Positions 4,028-5,597 of a stretch of DNA of 64,000 nt are shown here, piece by piece (positions within the stretch are counted from its first letter, which is position 1; each line of letters opens with the position of its first letter). The stretch spans positions 86,741 to 150,740 of IMG/VR virus record IMGVR_UViG_3300042484_002275; one strand, written 5' to 3'. The position numbers and the translations under genes are program-made. A model generated the notes under the pieces. It made no database searches. It was given only the letters and a program-made list of their open reading frames with translations, and was not told where the DNA came from. Origin of the DNA: a virus.

Positions 4028-4031
4028 AGAT

Positions 4032-4118
4032 ACCCATTCATAGACCCGTTTACATACCCGTTTACATACCCAATTCGTTACCCATTTGTAACCCGTTTCT
4101 GTCCCCGTTTCATACCCA
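4032..4118 (+). repeat. Phased ACCCGTTT array, block A (8 units)
   Basis: ACCC or CCCC cores begin at 4032, 4044, 4056, 4068, 4080, 4091, 4103 and 4114, so spacings are 12, 12, 12, 12, 11, 12 and 11 bases. The best unit is ACCCGTTTACAT. The mix of 11 and 12 excludes a coding repeat. No gene is visible here. Possible roles are an origin iteron set or a protein-binding array. Confidence 0.7.
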
Positions 4119-4407
4119 TACATACATGCATGTCACGTACGGAAGATACCTGGAGAGACATAGAGAGAACTACTGAGATACAATAAGAAAAGGTAAGACT
4201 TTGATTAAACATAAAGAGTAGTAAAACCCTTTGAAGAGTATAAAGACATATAGTACTAGGTATGAAAAGGTACTGTAAAGGATATACGATGTGTAAGAAA
4301 AGAATAAAGGCACGGTAAAATAAAGTAAGGAAAAATGTGGGGACTGTGTCTCCTTATTACTTTTTTTTCTATATAGAGATAATCTATTGTCTATAGTGTA
4401 AGGAGAT
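4119..4407. other. Non-coding spacer between repeat blocks
   Basis: Purine-rich sequence on the + strand with no open frame of note and no promoter match. It includes the palindrome-like CATACATGCATGTCACGTAC and one weak terminator-like hairpin. The motif GTGTAAGGA appears here and again inside the next block. Confidence 0.5.
4323..4371 (+). terminator. Possible terminator in the repeat region
   Basis: AAGTAAGGA can pair imperfectly with TCCTTATTACTT (bulged), followed by a run of eight T. The loop is long, so this is a weak call. Confidence 0.35.
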
Positions 4408-4582
4408 ACCCGATTTCGATACCCATTTGGTACCCGTTCCTATAGGCGACAGGGAGAGAGTGTAAGGAAAAACCCGTTCTAGCTACCCGTTTGTAACCCG
4501 TCCTGTTACCCGACCTAGTAACCCGTTTGGAAACCCCTCTAGTGACCCGGTTGAGACCCGTTTCTTTCCCCGTTTTCTACCC
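4408..4582 (+). repeat. Phased ACCCGTTT array, blocks B and C (13 units)
   Basis: Cores begin at 4408, 4421, 4432, then, after a 40-base interruption, at 4472, 4485, 4496, 4508, 4521, 4533, 4545, 4556, 4568 and 4579. Spacings are 11-13 bases. Both sub-blocks start after the same GTGTAAGGA sequence, 64 bases apart, so the block seems to have grown by duplication. It ends in a CCCCC-TTC-GGGGG hairpin at 4580-4592. Confidence 0.7.
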
Positions 4583-4610
4583 CCTTCGGGGGAAATAACT
4601 TAAAATAAAG

Positions 4611-4885: not shown

Positions 4886-5029
4886 ATGAAGACAATTCAA
4901 TTTACCATGCAAGAGAGATGGGCTGCCTCACGGCATACCGTACAGAAGTCTAAGAAGACCTACAACAGGAAGGAGAAGCACTCCTCAAAGAAACAGGGGC
5001 CTCAAAAGGGTCCCTTTTATTATACCTAA
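4886..5029 (+). CDS. Small basic protein, 47 aa
   Basis: Starts five bases after the previous stop. About one third of residues are Lys, Arg or His (for example KSKKTYNRKEKHSSKK), so RNA or DNA binding is likely. A similar short basic type occurs in Bacteroidota mobile elements, but I cannot name a family. The last codons overlap an inverted repeat that may end transcripts in both directions. Confidence 0.55.
   Translation: MKTIQFTMQERWAASRHTVQKSKKTYNRKEKHSSKKQGPQKGPFYYT
5005..5020. terminator. Bidirectional terminator-like inverted repeat
   Basis: AAAAGGGTCCCTTTT is a near-perfect inverted repeat with T-rich flanks on both strands. It lies at the end of the basic-protein gene and at the expected end of the leftward transcript from the promoter at 5199-5230. 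Confidence 0.4.
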
Positions 5030-5054
5030 AGCTTTGCTTTAAGTGCCAGGACCA

Positions 5055-5090
5055 GTTAAAGCATCACTTTAAGTTAAAGCATCACTTTAA
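5055..5090. repeat. Two exact tandem 18-bp repeats, each a hairpin
   Basis: GTTAAAGCATCACTTTAA is present twice without a gap (5055-5072, 5073-5090). Each unit is itself an inverted repeat, TTAAAG-CATCA-CTTTAA. Confidence 0.85.
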
Positions 5091-5198
5091 GTGGGTATGA
5101 AACAGTAGTGTGTATTACCTACTACAGAATATAAGGTACCGGCCCGTCTACTCTTCCGACTCTCTTTCAAGATCAGGCCCCTTATCCTTCTAACATAC

Positions 5199-5230
5199 CT
5201 AAAGATACGAACATAACTCCTCTCTAGCAA
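5199..5230 (-). promoter_or_regulatory. Minus-strand early promoter
   Basis: On the minus strand TTGC (TTG at 5230-5228) is followed after exactly 20 bases by TATCTTTAG (5207-5199) and then GTATG. All elements match the + strand early promoters. It is the only such minus-strand match I found, and it has no gene downstream. Confidence 0.8.
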
Positions 5231-5283
5231 CTATTTTTACATTTATTTTGTTATTAATAATGAATATAAATAACGTACAGGAG

Positions 5284-5315
5284 TTGCCTCCTATGTACTT
5301 ATTCCTTATCTTTAG
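5284..5315 (+). promoter_or_regulatory. Early promoter inside a small hairpin
   Basis: TTG at 5284 and TATCTTTAG at 5307-5315, 20-base spacing. AGGAG-TTGC-CTCCT forms a short stem with the TTG in its loop. Confidence 0.8.
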
Positions 5316-5342
5316 GTATCAATAATTAAAACAATAAAGGTC

Positions 5343-5597
5343 ATGACTAAATCAGAAACATTCAAATTACATTTTCCAGAGTTTAAAGGAGTGGTACATT
5401 TCTTCACCTCAGATTGTGAGCAATTAAACTTTATAGATGTACCTAATGATACAGTTGAATTCACTACTTCTTTTACATTGAGTTGTGGATGTTGTTCTGA
5501 CTTTGATCAGAGAGAGGGATCTCTAAGTCATATCATGGATCTTATGAGTGGAGGTGAATTTGTAGAACTTTTATCAATAGTAAATAATTTAAAATAA
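5343..5597 (+). CDS. Hypothetical protein with CGCC motif, 84 aa
   Basis: Starts 27 bases after the -7 box, in the shared leader. The middle carries SCGCCSDFDQREG; with Cys25 and the CxCC cluster it could bind a metal, but the spacing does not match a known zinc finger. The rest is a mixed alpha/beta protein. Own promoter, single-gene unit. No family recognised. Confidence 0.6.
   Translation: MTKSETFKLHFPEFKGVVHFFTSDCEQLNFIDVPNDTVEFTTSFTLSCGCCSDFDQREGSLSHIMDLMSGGEFVELLSIVNNLK

Follow-up and report, generated by a model that had tools for sequence, protein, structure and literature searches.

A candidate noncoding RNA gene shared by diverse phages, apparently of Bacteroidota

What is encoded behind a lone leftward promoter in a phage genome whose neighbouring genes all run the other way? 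The question is raised by a locus within a 64,000-base window of viral DNA (positions 86741-150740 of the 150,740-base virus record IMGVR_UViG_3300042484_002275). A sequence-only reading of this window had seen there a perfect promoter of the TTG-N20-TATCTTTAG type, driving a hairpin-rich RNA devoid of genes, perhaps a sponge or an antisense RNA. Here, we find that the region very probably holds a free-standing noncoding RNA gene, as judged from sequence comparisons, with a core that recurs in very different phages. Coordinates of its parts are collected in Table 1.

Promoter, reading frames and conserved core

The promoter matches its type with 0 mismatches and is the sole exact or one-variant promoter on the minus strand of the window, in agreement with the earlier claim of a single leftward unit; the plus strand has 5 exact and 18 near-exact promoters, and the early genes on that strand are preceded by the same promoter type as the RNA gene. 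In the window, in the immuto phages and in Tenacibaculum phage Larrie, the RNA is antiparallel to every neighbouring gene. No open reading frame (ORF) is conserved in relatives, which have no start codon or frame in common. A 47-aa minus-strand ORF with a TTG start (5087-5230) exists on paper, but begins within the promoter, so the earlier statement that the RNA lacks a reading frame holds for conserved frames only. Differences in length of the hairpin P2 among members of the family are not multiples of three which, together with the lack of a common start codon or frame, argues that the core is not coding sequence. An own promoter, an orientation against the neighbours and no conserved ORF together point to a free-standing noncoding RNA gene. 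We infer its transcription, its transcript ends and its timing; the RNA would be about 200 nt long here, and probably ~60-120 nt in other phages. A 32-aa hypothetical gene, immuto26A_125 (L009 4227-4325, equal to MW353175.1 67454-67552), has been annotated across the RNA on the opposite strand; the annotation is probably spurious.

A terminator-like end had also been noted for the RNA, and this point needs correction. The T-tract of the hairpin at 4995-5015 lies on the plus strand, indicating that it serves the convergent gene, and the minus-strand fold is weak (-8.1 kcal/mol, z -0.6). Several relatives, though, carry a good terminator on the strand of the RNA itself.

Because the full-length RNA is not unusually stable (236 nt; folding stability not above shuffles, z -0.81), we turned to conservation. 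The most conserved part, 5127-5182, is one that the sequence-only reading had passed over. A covariance model of this core, R1, which includes the window sequence itself, matches the window there with 65.5 bits (E 8e-14) and nowhere else with filters off. Like other members of R1, the window has a GGCCUG-type 5′ element, a covarying hairpin P2 and then the segment GGAAGAGUAGAC. Among 89 aligned members, the interval between the 5′ element and GGAAGAG contains 94 double-change cells, compared with 24.5 in shuffles, and 83.6% of cells are paired, compared with 67.3 in shuffles. The covariation score is 0.539 versus 0.232, with 0 of 500 shuffles as high, and slid controls reach at most 38 double-change cells. 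Since most of the 89 members had been chosen with a fixed closing base pair, the test was repeated on 90 distinct members, some of them fetched irrespective of P2. In 84 of these 90, a helix with 3 or more pairs directly adjoins GGAAG, compared with 59.5 when 3′ arms are swapped (sd 3.2, maximum 69, 200 swaps), and its closing pairs are diverse (GC 59, AU 12, UA 8, GU 3, CG 2). Conservation, covariation, promoter placement and the lack of an ORF thus lend strong support, at the level of sequence, to the earlier suggestion of a phage small RNA with its own leftward promoter.

The RNA family appears to be new, although phage-encoded small RNAs as a kind have precedents. None of the 4227 families of Rfam 15 (among them 6S, 6S-Flavo, pRNA, c4, GOLLD, ribozymes and riboswitches) matches the window at gathering score, and 4950-5320 yields no Rfam match at E up to 10. 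In 12 related loci, the RNA likewise lacks an Rfam match; one tRNA lies elsewhere in those loci. Open-access literature gave no relevant paper with the sequence, and no such family among phage noncoding RNAs; the comparison with known RNAs covered Rfam and this literature.

Distribution among phages and cells

The element is present in at least 100 viral contigs of very different phages, apparently with Bacteroidota hosts; the counts from the two loosest pattern scans of viral contigs, given below, are lower bounds. The exact palindrome 17-mer that lies beside the RNA in the window recovered 29 viral loci. In about half of them, a promoter is followed by an extended conserved block, and the palindromes lie downstream of this block. 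That block, GGAAGAGTAGACGGGCC, used as a query gave 28 loci, some in phages that have no palindromes. The pattern GGCCTG-N8..20-CGGAAGAGTAGAC matches at least 119 viral stretches, and the pattern GGAAGAGTAGACTCCNNCCT at least 120; the contigs that hold these stretches measure 4 to 272 kb.

Two classes can be told apart by the sequence directly after the invariant segment. Class A, which includes the window and immuto, continues with GGGCCGGUAC and similar sequences; class B, which includes Larrie, many marine and freshwater contigs and phages >200 kb, continues with UCCNNCCUAC. Some intermediates join the two: L083, for example, combines a Larrie-like 5′ part, GGGCGG, with a class A tail. The promoter before the RNA is kept in class A relatives, where a box lies upstream of the RNA in 22 of 31 loci, compared with 7 that have a reverse box. 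Class B RNAs share the strand of the genes. Often a promoter-like box directly precedes the RNA, and the next gene has a promoter of its own; upstream of the RNA, the promoter box is found in 35 of 95 class B loci, and other -10-like boxes in 37 of 95. In some class B phages (L129, L158, L164, L122), a box TGCTATACAC lies within P2 itself, and a transcript from that box would start near GGAAGAGUAGAC. An inverted repeat, AAAAGTGTGACGTTAGCC / GGCTAATGTCACACTTTT, recurs near the RNA in class B loci (L092, L117, L100 and similar) and is probably a shared terminator.

The isolates that carry the RNA are immuto (three) and Larrie (two copies), and its spread includes Immutovirus, Cbastvirus and phages >200 kb. 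All genomes searched with R1 have 1-5 copies, every copy on one strand. Up to five diverged copies are seen in one phage (L186, which is G007:1-20000; L187 and L188, from G004), and several of these copies have a terminator-like hairpin on their upstream side and the promoter of the next gene on the other. By their promoters and proteins, the contigs look like phages of Flavobacteriia and relatives, an assignment that is less firm for some class B contigs; the terminase of L109, for example, is closest to those of Nonlabens and Riemerella phages. The sigma-like protein of class B phages had no match among phage records.

Cellular genomes rarely carry the RNA: it was found in 1 of 396 Bacteroidota genomes and in two contigs from metagenome-assembled genomes (MAGs), of which at least one is plainly phage DNA. 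Contig 5 of G132 has three copies (L194, L195, L196) beside DUF932-like and other phage-like genes, and is either a resident phage or contamination. The exact 17-mer has 8 matches in bacterial genomes, of which 7 were dismissed by the model as chance and 1, on a phage-like MAG contig, is true.

Possible partner and mechanism

How might such an RNA act? We envisage that the early-gene region yields it as a transcript of its own promoter, and that it then works in trans. Its working part would be the 5′ domain: GGCCUG, P2 (pairing kept, sequence free) and the unpaired 12-nt GGAAGAGUAGAC, preserved near letter for letter. P2 would be the scaffold on which the invariant segment is offered to a conserved host partner, most likely a host protein that the RNA occupies or redirects, as decoy or modulator. 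Recognition by a host protein is suggested because the invariant unpaired segment sits on a varying helix, in phages that have hardly any proteins in common and apparently a common host lineage. Nine RNA-bearing phages proved to have no small RNA-binding-like protein in common, which again points to a host partner, and the number of copies per genome fits a dose-dependent, titrating RNA. That the RNA acts in trans via a conserved host component, probably a protein, is a plausible reading, if one that stops a little short of being probable. Proteins recurring widely in the nine phages are thymidylate synthase (8/9), ribonucleotide reductase (5/9) and a GroEL-like protein (5/9); the first (in G000, immuto, Larrie, G004, G006, G007, G009 and G010) is possibly just frequent in large phages.

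A wider proposal, which we put forward more tentatively, is that this is a hitherto undescribed, horizontally shared class of small phage RNA, common to unrelated Bacteroidota phages, which disarms or redirects a conserved host machine via the invariant unpaired segment. Candidate machines would be a defence sensor, RNA polymerase or an RNA-decay enzyme; the strong divergence of P2 would speak against a CRISPR-repeat mimic (RNA anti-CRISPR). If true, this would be a counter-host strategy carried out by RNA instead of protein.

Several points weigh against the main reading, a free-standing RNA that acts in trans on a host protein. Strong support for P2 extends to three core base pairs only, and a larger architecture is not evident: an outer stem P1 between the flanks shows pairing not above that of swapped partners and, in a narrower register, is marginal and unproven (p ~0.02, class B only), and a pseudoknot between the P2 loop and the 3′ tail is unsupported. 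P1 as GGCCUG/CGGGCC, attractive in the window, is broken in many relatives. Members were found via GGAAGAGUAGAC, so that its invariance is partly a matter of ascertainment, and members with one mismatch exist (GAGUGGAC, GGGUAGAC). The RNA gene itself is known here from its sequence, and the protein-decoy step is reached by exclusion. Finally, class B RNAs lie on the strand of their neighbours, and a role in cis is possible there.

Among the alternatives, a regulatory RNA acting by base pairing is the likeliest. Here GGAAGAGUAGAC or the P2 loop would pair imperfectly with host or phage mRNAs, or with a host small RNA, and alter translation or stability. Seeds usually have just this anatomy, an unpaired conserved segment next to a hairpin, and known phage small RNAs such as AgvB work by pairing or target mimicry (PMC12197685). 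However, a 12-nt seed constant across unrelated phages would need an equally constant target, and none came to light: 54 host-family genomes hold no conserved copy or exact complement of GGAAGAGUAGAC, the phages have no second complementary site in common, and pairing with rRNA is not unusual. These searches covered exact 12-nt complements; shorter or G-U seeds may exist, and we consider such a mechanism unlikely. Two versions of the idea in the sequence-only reading find no support. A sponge acting through UGAUG loops is unsupported, as the hairpins that would carry them occur in 0-5 copies and in either orientation and are absent in L047, L048, L073 and L081. Antisense action as a general function is unsupported as well: the RNA overlaps the convergent gene only around the terminator, and the same-strand class has no convergent gene.

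Somewhat less likely again is an element acting in cis, either a transcript of a replication origin (primer or R-loop) or an RNA that alters its own RNA polymerase, as put does. The window RNA lies beside palindromes, which cluster at the locus in class A phages, and 500-1000 bases from 8 one-sided ACCCGTT repeats; class B RNAs lie among small, probably early, genes, and their same-strand arrangement is compatible with such a role. Yet the GC skew does not switch at the locus in G000, immuto or Larrie, up to 5 copies are spread across tens of kb in one phage, and the RNA strand carries no gene downstream in class A or Larrie. It is also improbable that the invariant bases form the active site of a self-contained ribozyme or small-molecule aptamer. 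Many invariant unpaired bases around a variable helix are typical of both, but there is no match to an Rfam ribozyme or riboswitch, a single supported helix is fewer than known ribozymes require, and the downstream gene is not constant. We give very little credence to an element acting as DNA, such as a REP- or IS200-like mobile hairpin or a protein-binding site. TTAAAG-N5-CTTTAA does occur in both orientations and in variable number, as DNA sites or REP-type repeats would; the core, in contrast, follows promoters at a fixed spacing on the sense strand, keeps to a single strand for all copies per genome, and has a P2 that varies between copies and covaries. Conservation and covariation likewise refute, for the core, promoter-like and hairpin-like noise in AT-rich DNA, a practically negligible explanation even though the full-length fold is not above shuffles.

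To our knowledge, phage-encoded noncoding RNAs come mainly from enterobacterial phages and a few other models. The put RNA of phage HK022 is compact, structured and close behind an early promoter, features that the present element shares, and acts in cis on downstream genes; the class A element has no downstream gene on its strand. Like 6S RNA and 6S-Flavo (RF01685), the element would be a trans-acting, structured RNA in a Bacteroidota setting, with RNA polymerase a conceivable target, but it has no Rfam match and no long bulged helix, and is encoded by phage rather than host. The phi29 packaging RNA (pRNA) is likewise phage-encoded and structured with unpaired conserved bases, whereas the present RNA lies in an early-looking region of small genes rather than among packaging genes, in several copies and many phage types, with no Rfam match. 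The c4 antisense RNA (RF01695) of Proteobacteria and their phages is also phage-encoded and noncoding, but does not match, and its antirepressor target arrangement is not seen here. Bacteroidota and Flavobacteriia are dominant in the sea, in lakes and in the gut. AgvB / EcOnc01, a sponge RNA of the E. coli prophage Sp5 (reviewed in PMC12197685), is a short free-standing phage RNA with a transcription unit to itself, as the present RNA would be, and trans action is presumed here too; it differs in that no pairing target was found for the present RNA, which has a covarying hairpin and an invariant segment and belongs to unrelated, mostly large phages. A review of phage-encoded noncoding RNAs does not mention Bacteroidota or Flavobacteriia (PMC12197685).

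A near-unchanged RNA across Immutovirus, Cbastvirus and phages >200 kb implies a function that is valuable in many hosts, probably early in infection. Its 12 invariant bases make the partner findable, and two cultured phage-host systems carry the RNA: immuto on Flavobacterium LMO8 and Larrie on Tenacibaculum.

Palindromes and surroundings of the locus

Table 1. Features at the RNA locus, in window coordinates
Feature	Position	Strand	Remarks
Convergent basic ORF, 47 aa	4886-5029	+	kept in class A relatives
Shared hairpin, likely 3′ boundary of the RNA	4995-5015	both	good terminator on plus, weak on minus
Third, related palindrome TTAAAGCAAAGCTTTAG	5026-5042	-	
Two tandem copies of palindrome TTAAAGTGATGCTTTAA	5056-5090	-	variable decoration; 17-mer at 5056-5072 and 5074-5090, 18-base spacing
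Conserved core of the RNA (R1), 56 nt	5127-5182	-	covariance model match
Near-invariant unpaired 12-nt segment GGAAGAGUAGAC	5146-5157	-	alignments A1 and A2
Hairpin P2, GAUCUUGAAAGAGAGUC	5158-5174	-	helix covaries across 89, and across 90 distinct, members
5′ element GGCCUG	5174-5179	-	GGGCG- or AGCCUG-type in other phages
Expected transcription start	5188-5196	-	from -7 box distance, by analogy with Bacteroidota promoters
Promoter TTGCTAGAGAGGAGTTATGTTCGTATCTTTAG, -33 TTG / -7 TATCTTTAG type	5199-5230	-	exact match
Divergent neighbour	5284-5597	+	promoter 5284-5315, 84-aa ORF 5343-5597

The palindromes downstream of the core had been read as two identical tandem hairpins and a third, related one. 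The repeated sequence and its third relative are indeed there; the best fold of the tandem pair, by contrast, is one long hairpin of copy 1 against copy 2. The description of the RNA as hairpin-rich is borne out for the repeat stretch alone, which is more stable than shuffles (z -3.0), and not over its full length. UGAUG hairpins range from 0 to 5 copies and are missing in the four close relatives named above, which retain promoter and core. In the window genome, the exact form of TTAAAG-N5-CTTTAA is found solely beside the RNA. It clusters around the RNA, in variable number, in class A phages (L011, L021, L025, L070), and palindromes occur in both orientations relative to the RNA and reach beyond it in G003, G467 and G001. 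They are best regarded as an element distinct from the RNA, perhaps a set of binding sites or of REP-like repeats, whose transcription in the window phage would be happenstance. The motif is also present in unrelated phage contigs (L015, L024, L037).

The source genome is apparently a Flavobacterium-type phage of a Bacteroidota host. Its nearest cultured relatives are Immutovirus (Flavobacterium phages), with ~77% DNA identity across 44% of the sequence compared. At 5-13 kb, the window has small plus-strand genes, densely packed, with a TTG-N20-TAT(C/A)TTTAG promoter before nearly each; by its look, this row would be an early region. The noncoding stretch 4030-4600 carries ACCCGTT eight times and ACCCATT three times, on the plus strand only and nowhere else in the window, and could be an origin or packaging region. 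One-sided repeats resembling ACCCGTT apparently lie near the RNA in the relatives L014 and L048 as well.
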